This document shows, in pieces, positions 10,124-38,363 of a stretch of 64,000 nt of DNA. This DNA comes from an uncultured Roseburia sp. (GTDB lineage Bacteria; Bacillota; Clostridia; Lachnospirales; Lachnospiraceae). Below the pieces are notes generated by a model. It was not told the origin of the DNA, ran no database searches, and saw nothing but the letters and a program-made list of their open reading frames with translations. The position numbers and the translations under genes are program-made. The stretch covers positions 1 to 64,000 of the forward strand of contig CANDCP010000004.1 in NCBI GenBank assembly GCA_947383215.1. Direction: 5' to 3'. Every line of letters begins with the position of its first letter. Within the stretch, counting starts at the first letter, position 1.

Positions 10124-10163
10124 ATCTATTCTCCTTTCGATGCGTAACAAAATGGTGTCGCAT

Positions 10164-11618: not shown

Positions 11619-11622
11619 TTCC

Positions 11623-14821: not shown

Positions 14822-14833
14822 ATAATCCCCCCT

Positions 14834-16277: not shown

Positions 16278-16341
16278 ATAAAAATGCAAATTTTTTCATT
16301 GTTAACATTTTGTTCATATTTTTGTCATCATACCCTGCGCA

Positions 16342-16430
16342 AAGCCGCTCTCTTTTTGTCTTCCTTCTCTGTTGTTTTTCTGCCGTTTCTATGATCTGCT
16401 GTTTTTCTTACAGATTACACGATTTCTCAA
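16342..16430 (-). pseudogene. Relic of the anti-sigma-like gene fused to the start of a permease gene
   Basis: Reading the minus strand from 16430, TTGAGAAATCGTGTAATC mimics the first 18 bases of the permease gene at 14821. It runs directly into a stretch matching the anti-sigma gene near 18300-18485 (CTGTAAGAAAAA, then AACAGAGAAGGAAG and AAAAAGAGAGCGGC), with about 130 bp deleted between the two matching parts. It has in-frame stops and no coding capacity. It is the scar of a tandem duplication of an anti-sigma/lipoprotein unit. Confidence 0.7.
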
Positions 16431-16440
16431 ATAATCCCCC

Positions 16441-17652
16441 TTAATTTACATAATGCTTTGCTTCCAGATTGCTTGTTACTTCCCCTGTAAGCATATCCAC
16501 ATTCACGTAACATACGGCATTTGCATCGCCAACCCAATAGTTGGAAAGATCCTTTCCATATTCAATCATGAAAGAATAAACCGGTCTTGTCCTCACCTCA
16601 TTTCCCGCTTTTGCATAATACTCCTTGCCAGATTCGTAATCATAAATCGGTTCTAACGTATAAATCACATTGATTTCCCGGACAGTAACTGCCTTGAATC
16701 CCGATAACTCCTTCGATACCAGAGAAACGGCCGACGGAAAATCAAGGATTTTATTTTCTTTCTCGTATTCCCTCACCTGAAACTGTCCGTTATTGTTGCA
16801 GCACAATATCGTATTCGGCCTATTCATATCCATCCCCACAAAATTATCCATCCTTCCAACTCTATATATGCCCCCTTTTTCTACGATACCCCCGCCAAAA
16901 TAATCGAGAGCCACGCCGTGATACTGTATCTGCGCCAGCAGGGATAAGCGGTTTTTATTCTCACCAAAATGCCGGATATACACGGTTCCAACATAATAGG
17001 TGAATGTATCATCGAAAATATCATTTTGATTCAACTGTTCTTCCGCCCAGCGTATCTGATCCTTTAGCCAAACCTCCTCATCTCCCAATATAAACGATAG
17101 TTCCATATCATCTCCGGCTCCCCGGAACAGACGCGTCGTATTCTCATACAATTCCTCTAACTCCGCCTCACTCATCGCTTCCTTTTCATATGCCTCTCCT
17201 GACGACCATGCAAAAGTCCCGTTATCCATCACCCAGAAATATTCTTTATCCTCGGCGTTATCGTAAATCACAGCATCATCGCCCTCAAGCTCTCCCTTAG
17301 ATTCCTGCCACTCTGTCGGATGAACCTGAAAAAATTCGGCTAACGCCTCCTTATTCTTTTGGAAATCCTCAACAAACGCAAGACGAAGGTTTCCTATATC
17401 CTCAATATTTGAAAAATCAACTGTCCTGGGCAGAATCAAATTCTCCGGCACTGTCGGCAGATCATCGACGGACGCCTGATTTAACTCTTTAACGGTACAA
17501 TAGTTCAATTCGGCCTCAACCGTATGTTCATTCTTTTGATACCGCTCCATCTGCTCTCGAACTTCCTGCGGCGCCTGCTGGCATCCTGCCAGCAGACCAA
17601 CCGCAGAGAAAAGCAAAATCCATAATATGTACGGATGTTTCCTCTCTGCCAT
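16441..17652 (-). CDS. Lipoprotein, cassette B copy 2
   Basis: 403 residues, paralog of the 14834 gene with the same signal peptide and lipobox Cys24. Differences cluster between residues ~86 and ~290, for example the loop after DDMELSFILGDEEVW. The C-terminal end has two inserted residues (GDANAVCYVNVDM). It follows the anti-sigma-like gene after ~170 bp. Retention of two full-length copies with a variable centre suggests different ligands or dosage; this is inference. Confidence 0.86.
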   Translation of the reverse strand: MAERKHPYILWILLFSAVGLLAGCQQAPQEVREQMERYQKNEHTVEAELNYCTVKELNQASVDDLPTVPENLILPRTVDFSNIEDIGNLRLAFVEDFQKNKEALAEFFQVHPTEWQESKGELEGDDAVIYDNAEDKEYFWVMDNGTFAWSSGEAYEKEAMSEAELEELYENTTRLFRGAGDDMELSFILGDEEVWLKDQIRWAEEQLNQNDIFDDTFTYYVGTVYIRHFGENKNRLSLLAQIQYHGVALDYFGGGIVEKGGIYRVGRMDNFVGMDMNRPNTILCCNNNGQFQVREYEKENKILDFPSAVSLVSKELSGFKAVTVREINVIYTLEPIYDYESGKEYYAKAGNEVRTRPVYSFMIEYGKDLSNYWVGDANAVCYVNVDMLTGEVTSNLEAKHYVN

Positions 17653-17731: not shown

Positions 17732-17760
17732 TAAGACAATTGAACACACCGTTTGGTTCC
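17732..17760 (-). promoter_or_regulatory. Candidate ECF-type promoter, lipoprotein copy 2
   Basis: GGAACC (17755-17760), 17-bp spacer, GTCTTA (17732-17737) on the minus strand, identical in layout to the copy 1 site at 16249-16277. Confidence 0.4.
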
Positions 17761-17824: not shown

Positions 17825-18574
17825 TTATTCCAGCCTCTCGGCCTGATAAATGCCTTCTTTCTGTTCTCTTATGACAATGATTACCCTCTCTTTCTCGTTT
17901 CCCTCCGCAGACATTGTTATTTTTGTTTCGGAGCAGATAGCGTCCTCTGACAGAGGCGACCAATACAGATTTTCCTCCTCCGTAAAATATCCTGCTTTTC
18001 CGTGCCCTACAACCTCTCCCGTCTGCTTATCCCAGCTTAAAATCTCTCCTCTCTCTGTTTCAACCCGAATCCTGCTTTTGCCCGTCCCCGACTCTTCTGA
18101 TTTTCCCGACACAAGCAGCGGATAACCCGGCACGGAGCTGTCAAGCGGAGAATACTTGCCTAAAACAACCGCTTCGCCTTTCTTCACCTCCGTCACATTC
18201 TTATCCTCATACACCGCGCAAAGCTGCTGCGACGGACTCGTAGCAGCATAGACTTTAACCACAAAATTCTCCTCTAAGGGGAATACAGTCTCGCTCTCAT
18301 CCACAGCCGCTCTCTTTTTGCCTTCCTTCTCTGTTGTATCTGACAGAGAATAGGCTGATATTCCCAAACATAACGCCAGAAGCGCATAAAACGCATATCG
18401 AACCATTCTACGATGAGCCGTCTTTGTTTTCGGTACAAACGGCTTTTCTGCAATCTCTAAAGTCTGCAGTCTTTTTCTTACAGATTTGTATGTACGCTTA
18501 ATTTCCCTGCCCGTACTTTCCCGATACGTTGTTTCAACCGATGCAATTTCATCAAAAAAACGATCTTCCATCAT
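17825..18574 (-). CDS. Single-pass membrane protein, probable anti-sigma factor
   Basis: About 249 residues: a ~65-residue cytoplasmic N-terminus, one membrane helix (YAFYALLALCLGISAYSL) and an extracellular C-terminal domain of ~160 residues. The gene overlaps the end of an ECF sigma gene, the usual position of its anti-sigma partner, which binds the sigma factor inside and senses a signal outside. No zinc-finger anti-sigma motif (HxxxCxxC) is visible, so the assignment rests on position and topology. Three consecutive ATG codons follow AAGGAGGGA; 18574 or 18571 gives normal spacing. The sequence VRKRLQTLEIAEKP is partly preserved in the relic at 16342. Confidence 0.72.
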   Translation of the reverse strand: MMEDRFFDEIASVETTYRESTGREIKRTYKSVRKRLQTLEIAEKPFVPKTKTAHRRMVRYAFYALLALCLGISAYSLSDTTEKEGKKRAAVDESETVFPLEENFVVKVYAATSPSQQLCAVYEDKNVTEVKKGEAVVLGKYSPLDSSVPGYPLLVSGKSEESGTGKSRIRVETERGEILSWDKQTGEVVGHGKAGYFTEEENLYWSPLSEDAICSETKITMSAEGNEKERVIIVIREQKEGIYQAERLE

Positions 18575-19106
18575 CATTCCCTCCTTGTTTTTGTGATTTG
18601 CGAAGCTTTTGTTTACTTCTGTACAGACTGTTTCTGACACTTCGCTCGTCCATTTTCATCTCATCCGAAATTTCCTTTACAGATTCCATCAAGACATGCC
18701 TTCTCAAAAAAATTTCCCTGTGCTCCCGCTTTAAATCTTTCAAAATGAATTCAACCGCTTCGCTCTGATAAATATTTTCAATCAAACTCGCAATCTCATC
18801 ATCGGCTGTAAGACTTTCGCACTCCGGAGCAATCGACGCTTCCCGTTTCAGACGGCGATACCTATTAATCGCCGTATTTCTTGCAATGCAGGCAATAAAA
18901 CCTTTTATACTAACGTCTCTTAAATTTCCCCGCTTTTCCCAGACGGAGAGAAATGTATCTTCTACGCATTCCTCGATATCCTGCCTGCGGTTTATAAGCA
19001 CTCTGCCGATAATGCTTCTTACGTAAGCCTCATATTTTGCAATCAGTTCATATAACCCGCGCTCAGCATCCGTATCTAACAGCCTGCAAATCTCCTTATC
19101 CGTCAT
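18552..19106 (-). CDS. ECF-family RNA polymerase sigma factor
   Basis: 184 residues. Region 2 contains RRQDIEECVEDTFLSVWEKR followed by IKGFIACIARNTAINRYRRL; region 4 has the helix-turn-helix VKEISDEMKMDERSVRNSLY then RSKQKLRK. Start at 19106 chosen because AAGGAG lies 6 nt upstream (an ATG at 19124 is possible). The 3' end overlaps the anti-sigma-like gene by about 20 bp. It probably directs transcription of cassette B, perhaps from the GGAACC/GTCTTA sites before each lipoprotein. Confidence 0.92.
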   Translation of the reverse strand: MTDKEICRLLDTDAERGLYELIAKYEAYVRSIIGRVLINRRQDIEECVEDTFLSVWEKRGNLRDVSIKGFIACIARNTAINRYRRLKREASIAPECESLTADDEIASLIENIYQSEAVEFILKDLKREHREIFLRRHVLMESVKEISDEMKMDERSVRNSLYRSKQKLRKSQKQGGNDDGRSFF

Positions 19107-19169
19107 TTTCCGCTCCTTTCCCATTTTATTCCTTTATTTATATATACAAATAACAGAGACGCTTTGTCT

Positions 19170-21573: not shown

Positions 21574-21619
21574 GAATATATTCATTTTAGGAGGAAATGA
21601 ATTTCGAAAAGTTAAAAAC

Positions 21620-21775
21620 TTTAGCGCTATGTATCAATGGCGGTCGGTATGCCATTGGTTCACGAGGAGCCGGGTTGTCGAATTTTCAGCGGATGCCCGG
21701 ACGCAGATACGGCTGTGAAATATGGTAACAAATATGGCGGCAACGCCAAAACAAAAAGTCCATAACCGTATACCC
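21620..21775 (+). ncRNA. glmS ribozyme (glucosamine-6-phosphate-activated self-cleaving RNA)
   Basis: The 5' UTR of glmS contains the expected cleavage context A|GCGC with predicted scission between 21623 and 21624, then CACGAGGAGCCGGGTTGTCG and AATTTTCAGCGGATGCCCGG. These match the conserved core of the known ribozyme (GACGAGG...TTATCGAATTTTCGGCGGATGCC). Binding of glucosamine-6-phosphate causes cleavage and mRNA decay, giving feedback control of glmS. The sequence to about 21775 completes the pseudoknotted core; 21776-21825 contains a small CCCGG/CCGGG hairpin. Confidence 0.9.
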
Positions 21776-24309: not shown

Positions 24310-24948
24310 TTACCTGACTTTACACAATCTGCCTTTCTCCATCTCGCACACCGTATCGCAAAGCGCCGATATGTCCTCCGCGGAATGAGACGAAAGTAAA
24401 ATCGTCTTCCCCTGCTGCCTATAGCCCAGTAAATACTCCCGCATCTCCTCTACGCCTTCCTTATCCAGCCCGTTAAACGGCTCGTCCATAATCAGGATTT
24501 TCGGTTCCTCCATCATCGCCTGCGCCAGTCCGAGCCTCTGGCGCATACCCAGGCTGTATTTTCGGACATGCCGCTTCAACTTCGGATCGAGTCCCACTTG
24601 TCTCATGGTCTCCGAAATTTTATCTTTGTCTATTTTATGATTCAGGCCCGCTATCAATTTCAGATTCTTAAATCCGCTGTAATAGGGAATAAACCCGGGC
24701 GTTTCGATAATGATCCCCATATCGTCCGGGAAATCGACATCTTTTCCCACACGCTTCCCGTCCACGAAAACCTCTCCGTCCGTCACACCCACAAACCCGC
24801 AGATGCACTTCATCAGCATTGTCTTCCCGCTCCCGTTTCTGCCGATCAGCCCATGAATTTTGCCCGCCTCAAACGAAACGGAGACATCCTTCAAAATATG
24901 ATTTTTCGAGAGCGTCAAATTTACGTTATTTACCGTTATCATATCCAT
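24310..24948 (-). CDS. ABC transporter ATP-binding protein, cassette C
   Basis: 212 residues. Walker A GRNGSGKT at residues 36-43, signature SLGMRQ, Walker B ILIMDEP, and LLSSHSAED around the switch His. It shares IETPGFIPYYSGFKNLKLI with the ATPases of cassettes A and B. AGGAGG lies 6 nt before the ATG at 24948 (further ATGs at 24954 and 24942). It is the last gene of the cassette C series. It energises the two permeases at 24972 and 25848. Confidence 0.92.
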   Translation of the reverse strand: MDMITVNNVNLTLSKNHILKDVSVSFEAGKIHGLIGRNGSGKTMLMKCICGFVGVTDGEVFVDGKRVGKDVDFPDDMGIIIETPGFIPYYSGFKNLKLIAGLNHKIDKDKISETMRQVGLDPKLKRHVRKYSLGMRQRLGLAQAMMEEPKILIMDEPFNGLDKEGVEEMREYLLGYRQQGKTILLSSHSAEDISALCDTVCEMEKGRLCKVR

Positions 24949-24971
24949 TTTCATCCTCCTGCTTCCCGATT

Positions 24972-25844
24972 CTAACTTAAAATCTCCGTCACCGAATCAT
25001 AATCAAACCTTCTGACCGCAAAAATACAAAACAGCAAGAGCGCCGCTATCACAATCAGAAAATAGAAAACCGAAAACGTGACGGAGACAATCGGCTGCTT
25101 AAAATATTTGGTGTAATGAAGCCAGATCAACGCGTTTGCCATCGGCATTGTCCACATAAGCTGCGTGTTTACCGAGCAAAACGCCGTCCCCAGCGATATC
25201 ACACATGCCGTAAATACAAATCCCGCATTTTTCCTCCTTGCAAGGGAAAAGGCAAGCATAAGCAATCCGATTGTCAACAGATACACAAAAACCAACAGAT
25301 AGCTTTGCACCGCGGCCTCCGCCACGGACATCTGATTATAGAGATTGACCGGCAGAAGCCGCACACCGAAATTTTGCGCTCTTTCAGGAAATTCAAGCAC
25401 GAAATCTGTCGCCACCTTGCTCCAGTTCTCGCTGACAAAACCGCTTCCAAGCATCGGCAAAACCGCTCCCAAAAAAATTACGGCTAAAAACGACGCCGCC
25501 ATAAAGACAAGCTTTAAGATCTGTCCCAACAGCCAGCTGCTTCTTCCCGTCCTCGAAATATAAAAGACCGTGTTCGTGTCAATCTTTGGAAAATCCGAAA
25601 TCAGCGTCATAAACACAAGCGGAATGATCAAAAGAATCGCTCCGGAATTTGCAACGGCTATAAACGGCTCGAATAGATTTAAAGGCTCGCCCATCAATCT
25701 TGCATTTTCGCGCAGCGGCTCAATTGCAAACGAATGAATAAATATAAGAAGAACCGCAAGGATGATCATGCGCGCATCGCACACCCACTTGATATATTCC
25801 ACCTTTGCGCACGCAAAACTTTTTTTCAAATTAATTCCTTTCAT
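24972..25844 (-). CDS. ABC-2-like permease 1, cassette C
   Basis: 290 residues, six to seven membrane segments. LFEPFIAVANSGAILLIIPL followed by SDFPKIDTN and GRSSWLLGQI matches the type 1 permeases of cassettes A and B. GGGGGTG precedes the ATG, which lies 3 bp after the stop codon of the upstream permease gene. Confidence 0.87.
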   Translation of the reverse strand: MKGINLKKSFACAKVEYIKWVCDARMIILAVLLIFIHSFAIEPLRENARLMGEPLNLFEPFIAVANSGAILLIIPLVFMTLISDFPKIDTNTVFYISRTGRSSWLLGQILKLVFMAASFLAVIFLGAVLPMLGSGFVSENWSKVATDFVLEFPERAQNFGVRLLPVNLYNQMSVAEAAVQSYLLVFVYLLTIGLLMLAFSLARRKNAGFVFTACVISLGTAFCSVNTQLMWTMPMANALIWLHYTKYFKQPIVSVTFSVFYFLIVIAALLLFCIFAVRRFDYDSVTEILS

Positions 25845-25847
25845 AGC

Positions 25848-26717
25848 TTACACCCCCTTATCTGTCCTTCGACATATCACAATACAAAATCCCGCAAACC
25901 CCAACAAAAAATAAACGCCGTTAAACAAAAGCGTCGTCTTCGCCCTGGTATTCCACTCCGCCATATTGACGATATCAGCCATTCCGTAAGGAAAAAAAGG
26001 ACCGATTTTATCGTAAATATCAAAGTCCAAGTTTTCGATTCCTTTTGCCCCGAGTTTCATAAGCGCCGTATCCCATATATAGACGATTAAAAACGGAAGG
26101 CAGGTGATCAGATACGGGTTCCTGCAAAAAGAACCGATAAAAAACGCCGGTACCGTCGTCACCGCCCCGTAGAGAAACGACGCAAGCAATGTTTTCATTA
26201 CTCTCCCCGTTATTCCATGAGACAAAATTGTCATAAGCTCTTCTTCCGGGATTTGATACGAAGAAATATCCGGAAAAACATTCCACACAATTATCCCGTA
26301 CAGCAGTACGCCAAAAAGAGTGACAAGACCTCCGCTCAAAAAGGAAGCCATAAATTTAGAAGCGCAGTATCTTATCTGCCCGGTTCTGGTAATCGTATAC
26401 CGCATAAACCCACTGTTGCGCTCGGCGCAGAACGAAACCATAAACGGAAACGCCACGATAATCGGAAGAAACATTGTAATGTAGCCGGAAAGCGCATACG
26501 AAAAAACTTCAACATTGGAAAGCGTATAATCCGCCTGTATCACCCCTCTGTCAAGATTAAAAATCGCTTCAAATACAGAATATGTCTTGCCTGTCTCTAC
26601 GTCGCTGTATGCCGACGCAGTAAAGCATAAAACAGATATCAAAATAACCGCGCCAAGAAATCCCGGATTCACAATCGTTTTTCCCAAATCGCACCGAAGC
26701 GTCCTTAAAAATTTCAT
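25848..26717 (-). CDS. ABC-2-like permease 2, cassette C
   Basis: 289 residues, about six membrane segments, the longest of the type 2 permeases here. FLPIIVAFPFMVSFCAERNS then TITRTGQIRYCASKF is the family motif. GGGGG precedes the ATG at 26717, 12 bp after the lipoprotein stop. It forms the second half of the cassette C channel. Confidence 0.87.
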   Translation of the reverse strand: MKFLRTLRCDLGKTIVNPGFLGAVILISVLCFTASAYSDVETGKTYSVFEAIFNLDRGVIQADYTLSNVEVFSYALSGYITMFLPIIVAFPFMVSFCAERNSGFMRYTITRTGQIRYCASKFMASFLSGGLVTLFGVLLYGIIVWNVFPDISSYQIPEEELMTILSHGITGRVMKTLLASFLYGAVTTVPAFFIGSFCRNPYLITCLPFLIVYIWDTALMKLGAKGIENLDFDIYDKIGPFFPYGMADIVNMAEWNTRAKTTLLFNGVYFLLGFAGFCIVICRRTDKGV

Positions 26718-26729
26718 TCTATCATCCCC

Positions 26730-27929
26730 CTACCTCTGGTTGTTGACGAACTCCAACTCTCCCGTCACACAGTCTACCAGGCCGTATATTTCCTTTCCCC
26801 ACGTCACGTCTATGTAAATCGCCCAGTACGGTGTGAGCTCTAAAATCCTGCCGGCGTACATTGCATTTTCTGCTTCCAAAAGCGCGTCTTCCGCTTGGTT
26901 TGCATTTAAATCATCCTTTCCCATCATTACCGGACAATACACAAGCTCCATTCCAAGCACATCGTATTCCGCATATTCGGAAAGCATATTATCCAACAGA
27001 CGAACGGCACATTTCGGCGTCACAATGCCGTCATATGTCTCAACCGTTTCATGATCCTCAAAAGCATATTGTACTGTAAACGAATTGATCTTCCCCTTTT
27101 CCTCCAAATAAGACACCGCTGAAGAAAATGAGTACATGTCAAAACCGGTATCTTTCAAACGAGACGGCGTTGCACAAATCGGAAGTCCCATATAACTGCT
27201 GCTAAAGCGGACCTCCATAACCGTATTTTCACTTTCATCCTGATATACCGTTGCAACGGACGGCATCAATTTCTGCGGGTATTCCGAAACTTTTGTAAAT
27301 TCGGAAGCAAATTCGAATGCCGTCTCCGCCGCTTCGCTGATCAAAACGTTTTCTCCCTTTAACTTATAGACATCATCAGAATAATCGCTGCTTAAAAGAT
27401 AGCTTTTTATGTCTCTGAAATGAAAACTCTCCTCATTAAATATAATACTGTCTATCATTTCAGATTTCTTTTGCACATATCGAAAAAAACCGATATTCCC
27501 CGTCCCAAGCTCTGCACCGCTCTTTTCATCGTAAAAATCCGGTCCAACCGGCAAATAGCGTTCGTCAATAGTCACTTTATTTTCATCATAAATTTCTTCG
27601 GGAATATACCGGCTTGAAAGTACATCCCATTTATCTTGAAAGTTGTCCATACATACAATCTGATATTTTCCGATTTCCTCCGGAACGTCAAATGAGAAAT
27701 TGTTGACAAAATGCAGATTCTTGTAATCGTAAGACATAATCTCTTTCATATCCTGCTGCTTATGGTGAGCAAGATCATCCATAGACATCTTTTGAATTTC
27801 TTCTCCGTCCGGTGATTCTTCTGTAAAACTGCCGGAATGTGCTTCATCTAATCGTGGCGATGTATCATTCGCACACGCAGTAGTTATTAAAAATAATGCC
27901 ATACATGCAATTATATATTTTCACTTCAC
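26730..27929 (-). pseudogene. Lipoprotein of cassette C with a stop codon at codon 3
   Basis: A diverged paralog of the lipoproteins at 28071 and 30161, with the same ending YWAIYIDVTWGKEIYGLVDC then VNNQR. A strong site GGAGGTG lies 7-8 nt before a GTG at 27927-27929. The frame then reads GTG AAG TGA, after which KYIIACMALFLITTACAN would be a normal lipoprotein signal. The next ATG (27902) would give a 390-residue product with a truncated, uncharged signal peptide. The gene is therefore probably inactivated by one nonsense change, or survives poorly by reinitiation. The body of the frame is intact, so the event looks recent. Confidence 0.65.
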
Positions 27930-28070
27930 GATTTTTCACCTCCATCATGCAAACAATAGACAGTTATACTGAAGTCGCAGTATATTCTCTGACAGTAAGA
28001 TTGCTTGTAGACGGCGCCCCCGCTTTTCTTTCAAAAAATTGCTGCTCCTCTTTCCAATATACTCATCTCC

Positions 28071-29213
28071 CTATCTCTGGTTATTGACGAACTCCAACTC
28101 TCCCGTCACGCAGTTTACCAGGCCGTAAATTTCCCTTGCCCACGTCATGTCTATGTAAATCGCCCAGTATGGTGTAAGTTCCAAAATATCTTTCTCACTT
28201 ACCCAGCCAATTGTCAATTCTTCCGCTTCCTCCGTATCAAGCTGCTCCGCTTTTATGTCATGGCACTTTACGGGGCAATATATAAGCTCCATACCGATCA
28301 CATCATATTCCGTACGCTCTGCGAGCGACGCCTGCAGCGTCTCCACGGCGCGCTTTGGTGTGACTATACTCGTATATGTCTCCAACGTCTCATAATCTTC
28401 AAACGCATACTGTTCCGCAAAAAAGCCGATACTGTCCTTTTCATCGGCGCCGGTTATACCCGCCGGCGCTCCAAGCAATTCAAAACTCAGATCCCCCAGG
28501 CAGGACTGCACGATGCAGAGCGGAAGCCCCTTATACACGTTTCCAAATTCCACTTTTATTGCCGCATTCTTGTTTTCATCCTGTTTTGCTACCGCAACAA
28601 CCGGAACAAAATCCTGCGGGAAATCCGAAACCTGTATAAATCTGTCCACAAACTTCTCCGCCGTCTTCACCGCTTCGGCAATCGACACCTCTTCCCCGTT
28701 TAACGTATAGATATCATTGTCATAAGCGCCGTTTAAATAATAGTACTTTTCTTCTCCGTCATTATCAGATCCAGATATCACGCTATTGACCAGCCCGGAT
28801 CTTTTTGACTCATAAACAAACGTACCGTTGCCGGCAGTAAAAAGATATCTCCCGCTTTCTTCATCGCGAAACGTCGGACCATAAGGCTCATAGTTTTTAT
28901 CAATGACCACTTTACTTTCATCATAAATATCCTCCGGAATATACTCGGCTGCAAGCGTATCCCACTTGTCCTGAAACGGATCTTTACATATCACCCTGTA
29001 TTTTCCGATCTCTGTCGGCACTTCAAAATCAAAATCTCTGACAATATGCAGATTATCGTAATCCAGCTTTCTGATCTCCTCTATTGCCTGACGTTTATTT
29101 TTTGCAAGCTCCTCCAGCGTAACCGTCTCTATTTCACTTTTACTGCTGCCCGCGCAGGCAGTAAGCAGCGCAAATGATAAGCTGATTCCCGCAAATACCA
29201 TTCTTTGTTTCAT
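28071..29213 (-). CDS. Lipoprotein, cassette C copy 1
   Basis: 380 residues. Signal peptide with lipobox LLTAC, Cys20. Beyond the signal peptide it differs from the 30161 copy at only two residues (VKCHDIK versus VRCHDIE). The C-terminal block ELTPYWAIYIDMTWAREIYG then VNCVTGELEF resembles PepSY-like domains. GGAGG lies 6 nt before the ATG. It is 69 bp downstream of the secreted-protein gene, separated by a perfect hairpin. It is probably an external partner of the ABC transporter or an immunity-type lipoprotein; the function is not proven. Confidence 0.87.
   Translation of the reverse strand: MKQRMVFAGISLSFALLTACAGSSKSEIETVTLEELAKNKRQAIEEIRKLDYDNLHIVRDFDFEVPTEIGKYRVICKDPFQDKWDTLAAEYIPEDIYDESKVVIDKNYEPYGPTFRDEESGRYLFTAGNGTFVYESKRSGLVNSVISGSDNDGEEKYYYLNGAYDNDIYTLNGEEVSIAEAVKTAEKFVDRFIQVSDFPQDFVPVVAVAKQDENKNAAIKVEFGNVYKGLPLCIVQSCLGDLSFELLGAPAGITGADEKDSIGFFAEQYAFEDYETLETYTSIVTPKRAVETLQASLAERTEYDVIGMELIYCPVKCHDIKAEQLDTEEAEELTIGWVSEKDILELTPYWAIYIDMTWAREIYGLVNCVTGELEFVNNQR
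28071..29213. repeat. Near-identical 1.1-kb direct repeat, copy 1
   Basis: Repeated at 30161-31303 with a fixed offset of 2090 bp. From about 28385 to 29160 I see no base difference from the partner; the few differences lie near the 3' end and in the signal peptide. Confidence 0.9.
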
Positions 29214-29233
29214 ATATTTCCTCCCTCCTATTT

Positions 29234-29273
29234 GGAAAAATGTAAGGCAACATTCATTGCCTTACATTTTTCC
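29234..29273. terminator. Perfect 17-bp hairpin between secreted protein and lipoprotein genes
   Basis: GGAAAAATGTAAGGCAA (29234-29250) pairs without mismatch with 29257-29273 across a CATTCA loop. On the minus strand the stem ends in ATTTTTCC, so it can act as a partial terminator or mRNA stabiliser between a highly expressed small gene and the lipoprotein gene downstream. Confidence 0.7.
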
Positions 29274-29282
29274 ATTCACATT

Positions 29283-29690
29283 TTACGGTGAAGTCGTTCC
29301 ATTCGCTCCAACAGACCTGCTGGCATTATAATCTTTCAGTTTGGCTGTAACTGTAAAATAAGTACCCTTTGCCGGTTTTTTTCCCGTCAAAAAATTAGCC
29401 GTAAAAGAACCAGTGCTCTTAATTGTTTTAACTGTAGTTAGCTTTGCATTGTCACGTTCCCCCCACACCTGACAGGATGCGCCGGCGACAGCCGCTGAAA
29501 AATGTGTGGAATTTATAGCGATGCCATTCGATTCGGTTACCATAGCAATAGAGGACTGGCTTGTAACATTACCTGTCGCCCCTGCTGTATAATGCAGGGT
29601 ATAATTCAGGGCATTTACATTACTGCTCATCACCCCAACCGCCATAACCGTCGCCATACACATAGACGCTATTTTCTTTTTTAGCTTCAT
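29283..29690 (-). CDS. Secreted small protein of unknown function
   Basis: 135 residues. A signal peptide (MKLKKKIASMCMATVMAVGV, then MSSNVNA) gives a mature protein of about 108 residues, rich in Thr, Ser, Ala and Gly, with a single Cys in AGASCQVWGERDN and predicted beta character (TGSFTANFLTGKKPAKGTYF). The layout resembles secreted bacteriocins or cell-surface beta-sandwich proteins, but no family is recognised. AAGGAG lies 9 nt before the ATG at 29690; a GTG at 29714 is less likely. It has its own strong promoter and a long structured leader, and lies between the duplicated lipoproteins and near an exporter. Confidence 0.78.
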   Translation of the reverse strand: MKLKKKIASMCMATVMAVGVMSSNVNALNYTLHYTAGATGNVTSQSSIAMVTESNGIAINSTHFSAAVAGASCQVWGERDNAKLTTVKTIKSTGSFTANFLTGKKPAKGTYFTVTAKLKDYNASRSVGANGTTSP

Positions 29691-29710
29691 ACCAGATTTC
29701 TCCTTTCTTT

Positions 29711-29821
29711 TCACCTAAAAATAAACTTTTTTGACCGCATAAGGCTTCCTACCAGGATAAGTCTTTTCACAAATCGATAGAAAGCCTTATAAAATTGGCG
29801 CTTCTTTTTCCATATCCTCAC
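29711..29821 (-). CDS. Possible 36-residue basic peptide in the leader
   Basis: A GTG-initiated frame begins MRIWKKKRQFYKAFYRFVKR and ends RSKKFIFR, strongly cationic and aromatic. A purine-rich AAGGGG abuts the GTG, which is closer than usual. An alternative ATG at 29813, with GGGGGTGAGG upstream, encodes only eight residues (MEKEAPIL) before a stop. The region also folds into a hairpin, so coding potential may be accidental. It ends 20 bp before the secreted-protein start. Confidence 0.25.
   Translation of the reverse strand: MRIWKKKRQFYKAFYRFVKRLILVGSLMRSKKFIFR
29739..29790 (-). promoter_or_regulatory. Leader hairpin 3 (15-bp stem)
   Basis: ATAAGGCTTCCTACC (29739-29753) pairs along its whole length with GATAGAAAGCCTTAT (29776-29790), using G-U pairs. 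It is homologous to the hairpins at 29914-29965 and 31355-31406, with compensating base changes. Confidence 0.6.
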
Positions 29822-29913
29822 CCCCTTCATTAAATGATTAATTATATTATTAATATAATTTTAATTGTTATATATCTAATCTCACATATAAACACTGTCC
29901 TCTTGTAAATGAC

Positions 29914-29965
29914 AAAGCTTTCTATCAAACGATTAAATGATAAAATCATATTGATAGAAAGCTTT
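29914..29965 (-). promoter_or_regulatory. Leader hairpin 2 (15-bp perfect stem)
   Basis: AAAGCTTTCTATCAA (29914-29928) and TTGATAGAAAGCTTT (29951-29965) are perfectly complementary, with an inner ATGAT/ATCAT stem. No U-run follows on the transcribed strand, so it is not an ordinary terminator. Confidence 0.65.
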
Positions 29966-30020
29966 TTTAGTCAATTATAGATTTTTTCATATACTCGTTC
30001 CCAAATATGCTTATATATTA

Positions 30021-30048
30021 ATTATATATTTTTTATTCTATTTGTCAA
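30021..30048 (-). promoter_or_regulatory. Promoter of the secreted small protein
   Basis: Minus-strand TTGACA (30043-30048), 16-bp spacer and TATAAT (30021-30026), both hexamers perfect. The leader is about 320 nt. Between the hairpins (29822-29913) it is AT-rich with no other recognisable feature. Confidence 0.75.
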
Positions 30049-30160
30049 TATTAATTCCTATTTTTTGATCACACATTTTTATAACCAATAACCAAACGCA
30101 GACAGAAAAGAATCTTGCATATAGATTCTACGATAGCCGACATCTCATCCTACCATCTCC

Positions 30161-31303
30161 CTACCTCTGGTTGTTGACGAACTCCAATTCTCCCGTCACG
30201 CAGTTTACCAGGCCATAAATTTCTCTTGCCCACGTCATGTCTATGTAAATCGCCCAGTACGGTGTAAGTTCCAAAATATCTTTCTCACTTACCCATCCAA
30301 TTGTCAATTCTTCCGCTTCCTCCGTATCAAGCTGCTCCGCCTCTATGTCATGACACCTTACAGGGCAATATATAAGCTCCATGCCGATCACATCATATTC
30401 CGTACGCTCTGCGAGCGACGCTTGCAGCGTCTCCACGGCGCGCTTCGGTGTGACTATACTTGTATATGTCTCCAACGTCTCATAATCTTCAAACGCATAC
30501 TGTTCCGCAAAAAAGCCGATACTGTCCTTTTCATCGGCGCCGGTTATACCCGCCGGCGCTCCAAGCAATTCAAAACTCAGATCCCCCAGGCAGGACTGCA
30601 CGATGCAGAGCGGAAGCCCCTTATACACGTTTCCAAATTCCACTTTTATTGCCGCATTCTTGTTTTCATCCTGTTTTGCTACCGCAACAACCGGAACAAA
30701 ATCCTGCGGGAAATCCGAAACCTGTATAAATCTGTCCACAAACTTCTCCGCCGTCTTCACCGCTTCGGCAATCGACACCTCTTCCCCGTTTAACGTATAG
30801 ATATCATTGTCATAAGCGCCGTTTAAATAATAGTACTTTTCTTCTCCGTCATTATCAGATCCAGATATCACGCTATTGACCAGCCCGGATCTTTTTGACT
30901 CATAAACAAACGTACCGTTGCCGGCAGTAAAAAGATATCTCCCGCTTTCTTCATCGCGAAACGTCGGACCATAAGGCTCATAGTTTTTATCAATGACCAC
31001 TTTACTTTCATCATAAATATCCTCCGGAATATACTCGGCTGCAAGCGTATCCCACTTGTCCTGAAACGGATCTTTACATATCACCCTGTATTTTCCGATC
31101 TCTGTCGGCACTTCAAAATCAAAATCTCTGACAATATGCAGATTATCGTAATCCAGCTTTCTGATCTCCTCTATTGCCTGACGTTTATTTTTTGCAAGCT
31201 CCTCCAGCGTAACCGTCTCTATTTCACTTTTACTGCTGCCCGCGCAGGCAGTAAGCAGCGCAAACGATAAGCTGCTTCCCGCAAGTATCACTCCTTGTTT
31301 CAT
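30161..31303. repeat. Near-identical 1.1-kb direct repeat, copy 2
   Basis: Partner of 28071-29213. The homology ends inside the signal peptide; the upstream leaders are unrelated to copy 1 but related to the leader of the secreted-protein gene. Confidence 0.9.
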
Positions 31304-31312
31304 ATTTTTCAT
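30161..31312 (-). CDS. Lipoprotein, cassette C copy 2
   Basis: 383 residues, near-identical to the 28071 product. Its signal peptide has three extra residues at the start (MKNMKQGVILAG) and lipobox Cys23. GGAGG lies 8 nt before the ATG. It is the first gene after its own strong promoter and a hairpin leader, and lies directly downstream of the exporter operon. The very high identity with copy 1 points to recent duplication or gene conversion. Confidence 0.87.
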   Translation of the reverse strand: MKNMKQGVILAGSSLSFALLTACAGSSKSEIETVTLEELAKNKRQAIEEIRKLDYDNLHIVRDFDFEVPTEIGKYRVICKDPFQDKWDTLAAEYIPEDIYDESKVVIDKNYEPYGPTFRDEESGRYLFTAGNGTFVYESKRSGLVNSVISGSDNDGEEKYYYLNGAYDNDIYTLNGEEVSIAEAVKTAEKFVDRFIQVSDFPQDFVPVVAVAKQDENKNAAIKVEFGNVYKGLPLCIVQSCLGDLSFELLGAPAGITGADEKDSIGFFAEQYAFEDYETLETYTSIVTPKRAVETLQASLAERTEYDVIGMELIYCPVRCHDIEAEQLDTEEAEELTIGWVSEKDILELTPYWAIYIDMTWAREIYGLVNCVTGELEFVNNQR

Positions 31313-31354
31313 TACCTCAACCTCCTCATTTCATATTTTTATCACACGCAAATA

Positions 31355-31406
31355 AAGACTTCTTACCGGATGATTTTATGATAAAATCATACTGATAAAA
31401 AGCCTT
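31355..31406 (-). promoter_or_regulatory. Leader hairpin 1 (13-bp outer, 9-bp inner stem)
   Basis: AAGACTTCTTACC (31355-31367) pairs with GATAAAAAGCCTT (31394-31406); the inner ATGATTTTA/TAAAATCAT stem is perfect. It lies in the leader of the 30161 lipoprotein gene, between promoter and ribosome-binding site. Confidence 0.6.
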
Positions 31407-31460
31407 CTTAAAATCAATTATGAATTTTTCATATACTCATCCCCATATTTCTTTATATTC

Positions 31461-31488
31461 ATTATACATATTTTCCAAGATTTGTCAA
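31461..31488 (-). promoter_or_regulatory. Promoter of lipoprotein copy 2
   Basis: Minus-strand TTGACA (31483-31488), 16-bp spacer and TATAAT (31461-31466). It begins TTGACAAAT like the promoter at 30021-30048, and the downstream sequence GAGTATATGAAAAA is also shared, so the two leaders are homologous. Confidence 0.75.
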
Positions 31489-31498
31489 TCCTATACTT

Positions 31499-32683
31499 TT
31501 ACTCACCCTTTATGTATTGAATAATCTCTACTCTTGTCGACAAAATTGAAAACAGAATGCTGAAAAACAACGCCAAAAACGTACAGCACAGGAAAAATAT
31601 TGTAACCGAATAACCGGTTATATGAATAATCCATTCCTCGCCTAAAACTAAGGTGTGGTACACCTTTATACACGACAACAGCATCATGACCACCGCTACG
31701 GAGACAAGTATATCGATCACAATGACAATAAGTCCCTCGGTCAAAAACTGTAATACAATACTGTGTTTGCCGGCTCCCAATGCCCTTCTGATCGATATTT
31801 CATATTTCCGCTCATTTAGGGCATTCAAAAAACTGCTGAGCATATTGATTCCCAAAATAATCATAAGCGCAATCAGTATCACCTTTTTAATTTCTATCAA
31901 ATTTGTAATTTCCCTGTTCATATCCTGTTTTTCATTATAATGCGAAGAAAACCGCAGCCCGAGATCAGCGGCATACGCTTCTATTTCAGCCACGCTTGCA
32001 GAATATATGACAACCTCGTCATTTACCGTTTCCCTGTTCGTCACACAGGAATCCGAAACAAAGCCATAAAAGAAATATGAAATCTCGCCGTTTTCATCGA
32101 CCGTCTTATGTTCCGCGTCAAAATCAGCGCACACATCGGCCACCTTCAGTTTTTTGTCGTGTGAGAGATTCAAAAACAAATCCCCGTTTTTATCTCTCTG
32201 ATCTTTTATCAGACGATATAAGCTTTCACAGATAATAATCTCGTCGTTCTTTAAATCAAAACTTTTACTGCCGTCTATCAGTTCTGCACGGCAGCCGCTG
32301 TTCCAGTAATACGCCCATACATGATTCGGAACCACCTTTGCCATTAATTTAAAGCTGACGCGCTGATCTTCCTTATCAAACAAGGTGATTCCCTGAACCT
32401 CTGACGCCAGATAGTAATGCGTATCCTCTAACGAGTCCAGCTTTGCCAATAACAAATCCCGCTTGTTCCGTTCATTTTTCTCATACTGGACAAATGCAAT
32501 TTTTGACGACTCTTTCATTGTGTATTTATATGTGTTATAAATTTCAGAGTCATTATAAGTCATATAAAACGCAATAATGGAAAACGTCAATACAATCGTC
32601 ACGGAAAGAAATATATAATTCTTTCTGTTGTTCCATGCCTGACGGCATGCCGTCTTCATTATATTTAAAATATATCTCATCAT
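31499..32683 (-). CDS. FtsX/MacB-type ABC permease
   Basis: 394 residues. One N-terminal helix (NYIFLSVTIVLTFSIIAFYM), an extracellular domain of about 220 residues, then three C-terminal helices. The region NMLSSFLNALNERKYEISIR then RALGAGKHSIVLQF is the MacB/FtsX cytoplasmic motif. Its ATG overlaps the ATPase stop as ATGA. With the ATPase and adaptor genes upstream it makes a YknXYZ-like or MacAB-like tripartite exporter, a type known for peptide export or defence against peptide toxins. Confidence 0.9.
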   Translation of the reverse strand: MMRYILNIMKTACRQAWNNRKNYIFLSVTIVLTFSIIAFYMTYNDSEIYNTYKYTMKESSKIAFVQYEKNERNKRDLLLAKLDSLEDTHYYLASEVQGITLFDKEDQRVSFKLMAKVVPNHVWAYYWNSGCRAELIDGSKSFDLKNDEIIICESLYRLIKDQRDKNGDLFLNLSHDKKLKVADVCADFDAEHKTVDENGEISYFFYGFVSDSCVTNRETVNDEVVIYSASVAEIEAYAADLGLRFSSHYNEKQDMNREITNLIEIKKVILIALMIILGINMLSSFLNALNERKYEISIRRALGAGKHSIVLQFLTEGLIVIVIDILVSVAVVMMLLSCIKVYHTLVLGEEWIIHITGYSVTIFFLCCTFLALFFSILFSILSTRVEIIQYIKGE

Positions 32684-33333
32684 AGTAATTTTCCGTCTCG
32701 GAGAACATATTTTTTCTCCGCCCTTGCGGCCACATCTTCGTCATGCGTGATCACAACAACAGCCCGTCCTTTTTCATGCTCCTCTTTCAATATATCCATA
32801 ACAATACTTTTATTTTCCTCGTCCAGATTTCCGGTCGGTTCGTCTGCTATAATAAGCCCCGGATTCAAAATCAGCGCGCGCGCAATCGCTACCCTCTGTT
32901 TCTCACCGCCGCTCAATACCGACGAATCCTTATCCAACAGCGGCTCTATCTGAAGCTTGTCTACAATCCGGATAAAATCCTGCTTTATATCTTCGATTCT
33001 TACGTTTGCATAAATGAGCGGCATCTGTATGTTTTCACGGCAGGTCATTCGGGGAATCAAATTGTATGACTGGTATATAAATCCGATAGATTCCCTCCGA
33101 ATCTTAAAATAATCCTTATGATTTTTTATATTTTCCCCGTTAAAATAATATTCGCCTTGATCAAATCCCTCGATCAGTCCCAATATATTCATAAACGTAG
33201 ATTTTCCCGCGCCTGATTTTCCGCAAACTGCATAATAACTGTCGTTACTGATATGGACAGACAAATCTTTTAAGACCTGCTGCCCATAATAACTTTTCGA
33301 TATTTTATCAATATTTATTTCAATCGGCTTCAT
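32680..33333 (-). CDS. MacB/LolD-type ABC transporter ATP-binding protein
   Basis: 217 residues. Walker A GKSGAGKST near residue 38, Q-loop in FIYQSYNLIPRMT, signature LSGGEKQRVAIARAL, Walker B LIIADEPTGNLDEEN and H-loop VVVITHDED. This is the lipoprotein/peptide-export class with the EPTGNLD motif and is clearly different from the three cassette ATPases. The start overlaps the adaptor gene by 14 bp. It partners the 31499 permease. Confidence 0.94.
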   Translation of the reverse strand: MKPIEINIDKISKSYYGQQVLKDLSVHISNDSYYAVCGKSGAGKSTFMNILGLIEGFDQGEYYFNGENIKNHKDYFKIRRESIGFIYQSYNLIPRMTCRENIQMPLIYANVRIEDIKQDFIRIVDKLQIEPLLDKDSSVLSGGEKQRVAIARALILNPGLIIADEPTGNLDEENKSIVMDILKEEHEKGRAVVVITHDEDVAARAEKKYVLRDGKLL

Positions 33334-34153
33334 CTGTTATATTCTCATCTTCTTTCCACTTTGAATATCCGGAATCACAGAAATCGCCTTCGCAAATCTC
33401 ATCCCCGGATATGCAAATATACTTTTCGTCAGAAAATCCGACTTTAACCTGATAATCGCCGATAAATACCCCCGACTCATCCACTTTTCTTACGTAATAT
33501 TCCTTGTCATTCTGATACACACAGTCCTTATCCACAACCAGAGCATTGCTGTATTCTACCCCTGTGTACAATTTAAAGCTTTCCAGCTGCTTACCATACA
33601 TGACGTCTGTTCCCTCCGGAACGGATAAGATTACGCGAAACATCCCGTCTTTTAAGATCTTCGACTTCTTTATCAGCGCAATCTTATTTCCGTTTTCGTC
33701 CTGTAAATCCTTAGAAGAAATAAGATCATATTTATCCTCCGGCAGATATGTCTCCAACGCCAGCCTGCTAAAGTCATAATACTTTATGGTAACTGCCTCG
33801 CCATAGCTGATATCCGTAATGATCCCGTCAAAGTCCGCCTTCACTTCCGTGTTCCGATCAAAAGCAATCGCCTGTTCTTTCTCAATCTCATCATTGATAT
33901 TACATAAAACCTTCGCATTCGATCCAAGCTCGATGCTCTGTTCCTCTATTGAGACAACCTCTGCATTTACAACATAATATTCCGAAATGTCCCTTCTTTC
34001 AACCGGCTTCACTTCTCCATATGAAGATATATCGAAATCGAAATCTTCATCTTCTACATACTTCTGCTTTTCCTGATCCGAAATATACACTACCGCACCT
34101 AACGGCAGACAATAAATCAGCACGCAGATGATTGCCAAAAAATACTTTTTCAT
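33320..34153 (-). CDS. Membrane-fusion/adaptor-like protein of the exporter
   Basis: 277 residues. An N-terminal anchor (MKKYFLAIICVLIYCLPLGA) is followed by an extracellular part with lipoyl/barrel-like segments typical of HlyD/YknX adaptors, such as DFDGIITDISYGEAVTIKYY and VDKDCVYQNDKEYYVRKVDE. No long coiled coil is present, so it is shorter than usual. The start at 34153 has GGAG 6 nt upstream. It is encoded between the lipoprotein and ATPase genes and presumably couples the permease to its cargo outside the membrane. Confidence 0.78.
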   Translation of the reverse strand: MKKYFLAIICVLIYCLPLGAVVYISDQEKQKYVEDEDFDFDISSYGEVKPVERRDISEYYVVNAEVVSIEEQSIELGSNAKVLCNINDEIEKEQAIAFDRNTEVKADFDGIITDISYGEAVTIKYYDFSRLALETYLPEDKYDLISSKDLQDENGNKIALIKKSKILKDGMFRVILSVPEGTDVMYGKQLESFKLYTGVEYSNALVVDKDCVYQNDKEYYVRKVDESGVFIGDYQVKVGFSDEKYICISGDEICEGDFCDSGYSKWKEDENITDEAD

Positions 34154-34197
34154 TATCGTCTCCATTTAGCGCCCGACAGATATGCGGGCACGATTTC

Positions 34198-35349
34198 TCA
34201 CCAGCTCATATTTACATCATAATAGCTTATCTTATTTAAATAGAAGTCAAAGATATCAATCCCGTCAACCTGATACGCATAAATTTCATAAGGCGTACGC
34301 ATATAGCCCTTCGCAAGAATCTGATACTGAAAGTCATTCTCCTCACCGTCGATTTTATAACCAACATCCACGGAAACCGAACAGTATCCCCCGATTTTGT
34401 TCTTTAACGAATCCATCTGTCCCAAAATCTTTATACTTGCCAACGTATTTTGCGGAATTGTCAGCTCATCTCCCTCTTTGTATTCCATGTCCATGCTCTG
34501 TTCGTCGTTTGCAAGCCGGATCTGTACCTTCTCTATCCCAATGCCATCCGCATTCGATAACCCGATGGAGGTAATTGTCATTTCTTTTTTCTCTGTAAGC
34601 AAACACTCCGGCAGATCAATCTCAAAAAATCCCTCGCAGGTATTGTCTAACGGAATATAGTTCTGACATGCGGTTTTTACTTTCGCGCTACTCTGTCCTG
34701 CCAAATCTTCGGCAAATTTTTCTTTAAATTCCATTTTCGGTTCAAATTTAATTGTACCGATATCAAAATCATATTCTTTTCCTTTATAGGAAACGGTCAT
34801 TGTATTGATTTCCAAATCATCAAAATTCTCTATCTGCTCTTCTTCGGTTTTTAAATTTACATAAATCTGATATGTATAAAACGCAGGAATTTCTTCATTT
34901 TCAGCAATATTTGCCGTATAATCGTCAAATGAAATGCCGTCCGCCAAATCCCCGTACTTTTCTATACCTTTATCATTGTAGGCACAAAAAAGAGTGTATC
35001 CGAAAGCGTCCCTTTGTATCGCTTCAACCTCCTTTACCTTGACATCATACTTGATATCGCTGTCAAAGGATACCTCAATTTTATCCGCATCGAGATGCTC
35101 GATCGAATAGAGATTCGCCTCAAAATCGTGTCCCATCATACCTTTCATAAATGTGAGATCACAATTACACAGATCCGTCAACAATAGATTCTGATAGACA
35201 GGATACATTAAATCAAGATTCGCTTTCATCTGCTGTTCCGTATTACTCTCATTTCCCGCGACAACCTCTGTCTGCTTGGTTTGTGAACATCCGCAAAGAA
35301 TATACAACAAGAGGACGAACAACATTGATAACTTCGCTACTTTTTTCAT
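34198..35349 (-). CDS. Lipoprotein at the head of the exporter operon
   Basis: 383 residues. Signal peptide with lipobox ILCGC (Cys21). The rest is a soluble extracellular domain rich in Asp, Glu and Tyr with no recognised family; it is not an obvious paralog of the cassette lipoproteins. AAAGGAG lies 5 nt before the ATG at 35349; a GTG at 35355 is less likely. It is first in the order lipoprotein-adaptor-ATPase-permease. A role as immunity or substrate-receptor protein is inferred from position only. Confidence 0.8.
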   Translation of the reverse strand: MKKVAKLSMLFVLLLYILCGCSQTKQTEVVAGNESNTEQQMKANLDLMYPVYQNLLLTDLCNCDLTFMKGMMGHDFEANLYSIEHLDADKIEVSFDSDIKYDVKVKEVEAIQRDAFGYTLFCAYNDKGIEKYGDLADGISFDDYTANIAENEEIPAFYTYQIYVNLKTEEEQIENFDDLEINTMTVSYKGKEYDFDIGTIKFEPKMEFKEKFAEDLAGQSSAKVKTACQNYIPLDNTCEGFFEIDLPECLLTEKKEMTITSIGLSNADGIGIEKVQIRLANDEQSMDMEYKEGDELTIPQNTLASIKILGQMDSLKNKIGGYCSVSVDVGYKIDGEENDFQYQILAKGYMRTPYEIYAYQVDGIDIFDFYLNKISYYDVNMSW

Positions 35350-35416
35350 AAACACTCCTTTTTATATGCCTGTTATATCACGGCTGCTTTGATCATTGTA
35401 TCAATCAAAAAAATTT

Positions 35417-35800
35417 TTAATTAAATAACAAATATAAATCTGTTGGAATAAAATTATTTGTTTTTAATCTTATTATTTGAAAATTATGATATCTTTCAAA
35501 CTCGCGAGCCCAACAGTTGACCATTATATATGTACATCGTATATATATCAAGAAAATATTTTTATATTTATGCAATATTTTATAGCAGTTGCAGTTTGCT
35601 TTATATGCGTGTTCTTCTGTCACCGCATATTTCTCATCATCTTCTGTCGCATCATCATGATGTAAAAGAAGCCATAACTCAAAAAACGAATTACTGATAG
35701 CATATCCATATCCCCTCTCATCACATTTATCCAATGCCTCGTTAAAAGCGCCCGCTTCATGGTCAGATAAATTATCATCAATTTTTTCAACTAATTGCTT
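35417..35800 (-). pseudogene. RloB-like remnant, N-terminus missing
   Basis: The reading frame contains ALDKCDERGYGYAISNSFFE then LWLLLHHDD, the hallmark of RloB-family proteins (partners of the RloA ATPase, found in restriction/defence islands). The N-terminal ~80-100 residues of the usual ~200 are missing, and the frame is fused to the end of the RloA-like remnant. The C-terminal part is still readable to a stop. Non-functional on this evidence. Confidence 0.6.
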
Positions 35801-36230
35801 TGGCTTGCTTCTTCCCAGCATACTCAACTGTTTTGACGTTCTGTTTTTCACAATCAAAATTAGAAAAAGGGTTAAATTTTGATTCTCCCCTTTTATTCTT
35901 TTCTACAAACCAAATTTCATCCTGACCAAAATCATTTAGATTAATCAAATTAATATCGTGCGCCGTAAAAATAATTTGACTGTACGTTTCACCGCATCCA
36001 TTTTCTTTAAACTTTCCGAAATAAACTGTCTGAAATCCACATCTCTATCCATACGCAATGGCAGACCCTGAACCTTCGTGTTTGGAAATATAATCTGTAA
36101 ATGAAGGAATAAAATCCTTCTCTGATAGAATCATCAGCCACTCTTCATACACACGTTCCACTCTCACGGAAAAACCATATTCATACACTTTGTCTTCTAA
36201 GAAAAGAATAAATTGAAACATTGACCTCTC
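35790..36230 (-). pseudogene. RloA-like (AAA_21) ATPase remnant
   Basis: Fragments in shifted frames: FQFILFLEDKVYEYGFSVRV with EEWLM, and IIFTAHDINLI then GQDEIWFVEKNKRGESKF. These match the central and C-terminal (H-loop) regions of RloA-type AAA ATPases. Stop codons, frameshifts and a large internal deletion are evident, and the Walker A region is absent. With the RloB-like remnant it marks a decayed defence locus. The interval 36231-36267 has no other feature. Confidence 0.6.
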
Positions 36231-38191: not shown

Positions 38192-38204
38192 ACGCCTTTT
38201 CCTA

Positions 38205-38358
38205 TCTTCTTCTCACGTTCAAGCTTTAGCTTCATAGGGCGATGAAATTACATTATTCTATGCCTTAACGACATAGACTGTTGACCTTCTCATAGTGTCT
38301 CCACTACTCCGCGGCAGTAATCCGTATCCCTATGGTAGCCTCACCTACCGAATGTTCC
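38205..38358 (-). ncRNA. M-box (ykoK) magnesium riboswitch
   Basis: The minus strand reads ATTCGGTAGGTGAGGCTACC then ATAGGGATACGGATTACTGC, later GGTCAACAG and CCCTATGAAGCTAAAGCTTG, which follow the M-box consensus closely. High Mg2+ should favour the terminator at 38164 and switch corA off. Confidence 0.92.
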
Positions 38359-38363
38359 ATTTA

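Follow-up and report, generated by a model that had tools for sequence, protein, structure and literature searches.

Self-protection against nisin is provided by a lipoprotein that binds the peptide, NisI, together with an ATP-binding cassette (ABC) transporter that expels it, NisFEG (PMC4828448). The pump YknWXYZ effluxes SDP and protects Bacillus against this secreted toxin (PMC4887032). In the Lachnospiraceae, Mediterraneibacter gnavus makes mediterrocin, a Sec-exported lactococcin 972-like bacteriocin of 89 residues (PMC12345188), and Sec-exported protein bacteriocins thus do occur in this family. Here we describe a gene cassette in a stretch of 64,000 nucleotides from an uncultured Roseburia sp. 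of the same family (contig CANDCP010000004.1, positions 1 to 64,000; the window), in which a small secreted protein (SSP) is encoded beside lipoproteins and an ABC-2 module. The cassette recurs in relatives, its SSPs have diverged strongly, SSPs have been lost where lipoprotein and ABC genes are kept, and agr-type genes are neighbours of some copies. With moderate confidence we favour the reading that the SSP is a Sec-exported, cationic protein bacteriocin with lipoprotein and ABC immunity, which would work in the manner of NisI/NisFEG and not be a member of that group.

Comparison with known systems

The likeness to LanI/LanFEG lies in the layout, as a lipoprotein, two permeases and one ATPase are encoded beside an antimicrobial, here a putative one. 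The best NCBIfam match of the cassette ATPase is the lantibiotic-protection ATPase TIGR03740, with 172.4 bits below the cut-off of 309.75. The putative product, however, would be a protein some 108 residues long that is exported via Sec. The lipoproteins and permeases scanned gave no match to LanI, LanE or LanG, and neither a lanthipeptide precursor nor LanB, LanC or LanM was found among ten proteins scanned or in the lists of open reading frames (ORFs). With lactococcin 972 the locus shares a Sec-type small secreted protein (about 90-108 residues), ABC genes and its occurrence in Lachnospiraceae. A first-pass annotation of the window had suggested a search for lactococcin-972-like families; neither the 20 SSPs nor the host genome gave a match to PF09683, which was found in two of 200 family genomes. 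An hhalign comparison of the SSP with the lactococcin 972 family returned a probability of 4% on a very shallow template of two sequences, and the seven-helix immunity protein DUF1430 was found neither among ten proteins of the window nor among 15 permease-1 proteins. Since defining features of both were searched for and not found, we class the cassette neither as lantibiotic immunity nor as lactococcin 972.

The cassette ATPase is also related to the ABC-2 ATPase of PmtABCD (NF047568, 131.5 bits; a match to PDB entry 6xjh, which we take to be PmtCD), but its score is far below the NF047568 cut-off of 375 bits. Unlike the SSP, phenol-soluble modulins are not known to carry a signal peptide.

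The small secreted protein

Counted from its ATG the SSP has 135 residues and begins with a signal-peptide-like N-terminus; cleavage after VNA would leave a mature part of 108 residues with a calculated isoelectric point of 9.7. Signal sequences were assigned by visual inspection and a simple rule based on hydrophobicity, and with such crude cut sites the isoelectric point of the mature part exceeds 8.5 in 18 of 21 SSPs. Between the SSP orthologues of a further cassette of the host genome (C36) and of G685, another Roseburia genome (G685:C3), the ratio of nonsynonymous to synonymous substitution rates (dN/dS) in the mature part is 0.17; all our ratios are single-pair Nei-Gojobori estimates from our own script, some with dS above 1. 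This value points to purifying selection and therefore to a real protein gene.

The first-pass annotation had seen a small protein of no recognised class, and we come to the same result: no convincing match was found for 20 SSPs in Pfam and six in NCBIfam, nor for the lipoproteins (13 and three, respectively). One of ten lipoproteins matched DUF6034 (E-value 0.0011). The permease scans covered 15 first and one second permease in Pfam and 15 second and one first in NCBIfam, and the strongest of their weak matches was ABC2_membrane_2 in one permease (E 1.8e-4). Sequence searches of the PDB gave nothing significant for the SSP, the lipoprotein or permease 2, viral contigs held no relatives of the SSP or of the lipoprotein, and none were found on plasmids by single-sequence tblastn. 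A literature search that mostly did not extend to subscription papers and bioRxiv showed no description of the cassette among the titles and abstract openings listed, and no mention of DUF6034. Other matches were weak or generic: a dehydrogenase domain match of the SSP at locus L105 lies below the cut-off (E 1e-4) and was taken as chance; a PepSY fold for the lipoprotein C-terminus, suggested by a resemblance, yielded one sub-threshold match (E 0.09, C36 paralogue); and the PADLOC matches of both ATPases are generic ABC/AAA.

Recurrence of the cassette

In the relatives the genes follow each other in the order SSP, lipoprotein of about 400 residues, permease 1, permease 2 and ATPase, and this order is also found in other genera. 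When SSP and lipoprotein were used as separate queries against the host genome itself and up to 397 family genomes, both reached the same places. We read by hand, and partly checked by a frame-translation search, 37 lipoprotein loci from 23 genomes including the host, in which the SSP is intact in 20 cases, broken in four, not found in nine and cut by a contig end in four. All of these loci belong to Lachnospiraceae except G557, which represents another family of the same order. An SSP profile recovers sixteen of the intact SSPs at E ≤1e-3, and the remaining four (L105, L109, L110 and L112) were called by position and resemblance. Among the broken genes one is without a standard start codon (G278:C27), one has a frame break (G602), in one the full-length protein lacks a start codon in frame (G276) and one, in a second cassette of the window, is deleted. 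The nine negative loci showed no SSP in three frames within up to 2.5 kb upstream of the lipoprotein. At two loci (G017:C22 and G278:C38) SSP and lipoprotein have no permeases beside them.

The recurring unit of SSP, lipoprotein and ABC-2 module agrees with the earlier suggestion of a bacteriocin or signal peptide with immunity lipoproteins; the exporter that was part of the same suggestion is not supported. Because a Sec-type signal is already present on the SSP, and because ABC genes are retained at loci that have lost it, the ABC-2 module does not appear to be the SSP exporter and is more likely to serve immunity.

Is the small gene truly associated with the lipoprotein? In 20 loci fetched by the lipoprotein search alone, a small secreted ORF lies directly upstream of 9 of 19 lipoprotein genes as compared with 3 of 168 other ORFs (Fisher p 2.7e-8), one of these three being an SSP-like gene itself; the count used a crude signal-peptide rule and mechanical ORFs and left out lipoproteins less than 400 nt from a contig end. 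It is the cleaner test, as a wider count (18 of 37 versus 8 of 318) includes loci found via the SSP. The SSP profile itself matched 12 times in nine of the 397 genomes. Half of these matches are rows from which the profile was built and which had been picked beside lipoproteins; of the other six, four adjoin a lipoprotein, and two (G146 and G679), excluded from the tally of 37 loci, have a contig end less than 420 nt away. The lipoprotein search, scoring four candidates per genome, reached at least 112 of the 397 genomes at E 1e-3, where most of the weak matches cover signal peptide and lipobox alone, and at least 23 at E 1e-10. Loci were read from 21 of these 23 genomes (G083 and G092 were left out), further matches were partly read, and two genomes of the tally, G624 and G557, came from another search.

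Loss of the SSP

The second cassette of the window (12581-17652) has an SSP remnant before each of its two lipoproteins. In front of the gene at 14834-16039, leader and signal-peptide start run straight into the last SSP codons, about 295 bases being missing relative to the intact orthologue G685:C8; the loss before 17652 is larger. As the deletion junction is identical in both places, there was probably one SSP deletion, and duplication or gene conversion later carried it to the second place. All the other genes (lipoproteins, permeases, ATPase) are intact. The two lipoprotein copies give a dN/dS of 0.20 at a dS of 0.52, and the other retained genes give 0.07-0.13 when compared with G685; these values point to purifying selection, as would be expected of orphan immunity genes. 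The orthologue of the SSP-bearing cassette of the window, G685:C57, consists of lipoprotein, permeases and ATPase and has no SSP. Such loss of the SSP while the rest is kept and duplicated is as expected of a toxin and its immunity genes; it is consistent with this pairing and not proof of it.

Each lipoprotein gene of this second cassette is also preceded by a GGAACC-N17-GTCT site, presumably ECF (extracytoplasmic function) sigma-like (16251-16277 and 17734-17760); the same site is present in the G685 orthologue, and a gene at 18552-19124 looks like an ECF sigma factor.

Cassettes of the host genome and their divergence

The host genome carries at least five cassettes, namely the two of the window, C36, C3 and C73. 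The one on C36 (lipoprotein, SSP, lipoprotein, permeases, ATPase) repeats the sandwich around the SSP of the present locus, C3 has the SSP followed by two lipoproteins, permeases and ATPase, and the C73 cassette is complete; on C60 a lipoprotein is found with a contig end beside it. G685 holds four cassettes, and G056, of the same genus, gave no match in the SSP profile search or the lipoprotein search. The four intact SSPs of the host share only 20-27% pairwise identity. Over eight complete cassettes the mean pairwise identity is 21% for the SSP, 20% for the lipoprotein, 23% and 31% for permeases 1 and 2 and 58% for the ATPase, and the divergence of the SSP correlates with that of the lipoprotein (r 0.70), the permeases (0.51 and 0.62) and the ATPase (0.53). 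As a mirror of the sandwich in the window, two similar SSP-like genes flank one lipoprotein at L112 (6344-6736 and 8296-8697).

Promoters, leader element and agr-type genes

The SSP had been credited with a strong promoter of its own, and a candidate with the perfect consensus TTGACA-16-TATAAT is indeed present (30048-30021); the promoter-like sites of the region number 35, no more than expected from shuffled sequence (mean 32.5). A leader element, whose hairpin has 13-15 pairs, lies in tandem before the SSP and once before the upstream lipoprotein copy (Table 1). Elsewhere it is found twice before the lipoprotein on C60 and also before the lipoprotein of G685:C57 and the cassette on C73, whereas no match was obtained in the cassettes on C36 and C3. 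In two to three pairs of the hairpin both partners have changed; with few and related copies this amounts to weak covariation, and in Rfam no family reached the gathering score, the sub-threshold matches being unconvincing. The leader might act in attenuation, in stabilising the mRNA or as an operator.

Agr-type genes lie upstream in six loci. They encode a GHKL kinase and AgrB at L038, a LytTR regulator and kinase at L039, a regulator and kinase at L099, a LytTR regulator at L054 (no lipoprotein seen, contig end), a regulator, kinase and AgrB at L105 and, at L104, a regulator, a kinase, an AgrD above the cut-off (TIGR04223, 29.1 bits versus 19) and an AgrB-like protein below it. An AgrD-like ORF at L038 was judged by eye and has no Pfam match. 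Two of the agr-flanked loci, L099 and L104, are without an SSP.

Interpretation of the cassette

If the SSP is a bacteriocin, it would leave the cell via the Sec pathway, as its signal peptide suggests, and would act on competing, probably related, bacteria. The architecture of the cassette suggests that the lipoprotein or lipoproteins on the outer face of the producer membrane would bind the cognate SSP and that the ABC transporter of two permeases and one ATPase would remove it from the membrane, which would make the producer immune. We see even chances for the wider proposal that the cassettes represent an unannotated class of Sec-secreted protein bacteriocins that is hypervariable and widespread in gut Lachnospiraceae, with their own lipoprotein-ABC immunity, sometimes under agr control, with at least five cassettes in a genome and with frequent toxin loss by which immunity genes are orphaned. 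If this is true, much of the protein warfare among gut Firmicutes is unannotated, the resistance of a strain to particular toxins should be predictable from its orphan cassettes, and production should depend on cell density where agr genes are linked.

Several findings weigh against a bacteriocin. No member of the SSP family is known to be antimicrobial, and Pfam, NCBIfam and family-profile comparison gave no sequence link from the SSP to a known bacteriocin. AlphaFold2 models reached a predicted local distance difference test score (pLDDT) of 33 for the SSP (single sequence) and of 37 for the lipoprotein (five sequences), too poor to search for related folds. SSP and lipoprotein are not alone in their low identity, since the permeases diverge too and the ATPase alone is conserved. 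The two permeases correlate with each other more strongly (0.92) than SSP and lipoprotein do, and since other component pairs correlate more strongly, no specific co-evolution of SSP and lipoprotein is demonstrated. Part of the dN/dS signal against G685 may predate the SSP loss, and the module might have a function of its own, as nine loci keep lipoprotein and ABC genes without an SSP.

Lipoprotein and ABC transporter together are also a layout for uptake or sensing, and the SSP could be an extracellular signal with the lipoprotein as receptor and the transporter sensing or importing it. The agr-type regulators beside some cassettes would fit a signal, but a full agr set brings its own (AgrD at L104), the best matches of the ATPase are of exporter/ABC-2 type, and a receptor is unlikely to be kept and duplicated once its signal is lost, as it would have been in the second cassette of the window; we consider this explanation unlikely. 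A little more doubtful still is a surface, matrix or host-interaction protein which lipoprotein and transporter would assemble or secrete. Signal peptide and the extended-looking sequence pattern of the SSP speak for such a role, although the structure model of the SSP is of no help here; against it stand the lack of an anchor motif seen in the SSP, the patchy occurrence in nine of 397 genomes by SSP profile and the accessory genes that are kept without the SSP. The loci without an SSP, 9 of 37, and the lantibiotic-protection family as best match of the ATPase would suit a stand-alone detoxification system of the BcrAB/LanFEG kind, directed against foreign envelope-active peptides and having the SSP as helper or decoy. 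Yet a lipoprotein adjoins the SSP in 10 of the 12 profile matches (two are undecidable, and six of the ten do so by construction) and the SSPs within one genome are very unlike each other, and we regard this as the least probable of the three alternatives.

Gene layout of the locus

All genes named between 24310 and 35355 are on the minus strand (Table 1), as the first-pass annotation had it, and the secreted protein of 135 residues does lie between two near-identical lipoproteins. These two (28071-29213 and 30161-31312) are 98% identical with a dS of 0.065 and look like a recent duplication; this pattern is seen again in other cassettes of the host genome. A third lipoprotein (26730-27902), absent from the earlier annotation, is 49% identical to the flanking pair and has a short N-terminus without a normal signal-peptide start, its N-terminal part being likely in another frame.

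Table 1. Features of the two cassettes and of the adjoining operon in the window
Feature	Position	Strand	Basis
ABC ATPase	24310-24954	-	ORF; NCBIfam scan
ABC permease 2	24972-25844	-	ORF; profile comparison across cassettes
ABC permease 1	25848-26717	-	ORF; profile comparison across cassettes
Third, divergent lipoprotein	26730-27902	-	ORF; identity to other copies
Partner lipoprotein, LTAC lipobox, putative immunity protein	28071-29213	-	ORF; same family adjoins SSP in relatives
SSP, putative bacteriocin	29283-29690	-	ORF; family alignment; calculated isoelectric point
Second, tandem leader copy before SSP	29737-29828	-	
Leader element before SSP: Shine-Dalgarno-like GGG..GAG, very short ORF, hairpin	29911-30005	-	
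SSP promoter, perfect TTGACA-16-TATAAT	30021-30048	-	
Near-identical lipoprotein copy, upstream of SSP, own promoter and leader	30161-31312	-	
Leader element before upstream lipoprotein copy	31351-31447	-	
Second perfect promoter, before upstream lipoprotein copy	31461-31488	-	
FtsX-type permease	31499-32683	-	ORF; PF02687
MacB-like ATPase of neighbouring operon	32680-33333	-	ORF; NCBIfam
Adaptor-like protein	33320-34165	-	ORF; weak TIGR01730
Lipoprotein of neighbouring operon	34198-35355	-	ORF
Second cassette, permease 1, permease 2 and ATPase	12581-14821	-	
Second cassette, lipoprotein copy 2	14834-16039	-	
Second cassette, intergenic stretch before copy 2: leader, signal-peptide start, last codons of internally deleted SSP	16040-16440	-	
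Second cassette, lipoprotein copy 1, preceded by SSP remnant	16441-17652	-	

The neighbouring operon and other features of the window

The operon at 31499-35355 encodes a lipoprotein, an adaptor-like protein, an ATPase and an FtsX-type permease. The permease matches PF02687 with an E of 6.9e-11, the ATPase is nearest to TIGR03608 below the cut-off (208.6 versus 254.85 bits), and the adaptor-like protein matches TIGR01730 weakly (E 2.4e-4). The components of the MacB/YknXYZ-like operon reported by the first reading are thus present; the trio of permease, ATPase and adaptor-like protein does, however, probably not belong to the cassette. In G685:C57 the counterpart of the lipoprotein at 34198-35355 (84% identity over 243 aa) stands directly before the cassette with no trio between them, and in the other loci read, 20 of them with four ORFs viewed on each side, the trio 31499-34165 was not found between the SSP cassette and its flank. 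It is probably a separate neighbour outside the conserved cassette. The FtsX-type permease, the MacB/Lol-type ATPase and the adaptor-like protein resemble YknWXYZ, but neither an SdpC-like toxin nor YknW was seen, and relatives read do not have the trio at this place. The promoter region at 35551 has, by eye, the start GGGC..GCGAGT.TGAAA common to the leaders, which leader model R1 did not report; the trio may be co-regulated with the cassette via such a common promoter/leader motif.

Two loci do have other ABC sets with FtsX-type or Lol/MacB-type parts in their vicinity. Downstream of the G685:C57 cassette lie a Lol/MacB-type ATPase, permease-like ORFs and an anchored protein. This set is preceded by a small secreted ORF with an interrupted frame (L007, 5239-5532 onward) and is possibly a second kind of small-protein system. 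Near C3 an ATPase and a protein of 892 aa are encoded on the other strand.

At 6422-10174 the window contains another ABC set of the cassette type, whose ATPase and both permeases match the cassette profiles and which includes a lipoprotein-like ORF of 527 aa outside the cassette lipoprotein family; it lies downstream of an apparent response regulator and kinase (10236-12285). A short ORF at 35417-35857, in the low-GC flank of the region, is presumably a fragment of an RloB-like gene, judging from a resemblance. A glmS ribozyme (21612-21774) precedes the gene at 21840, and positions 38203-38359 hold an M-box magnesium riboswitch.

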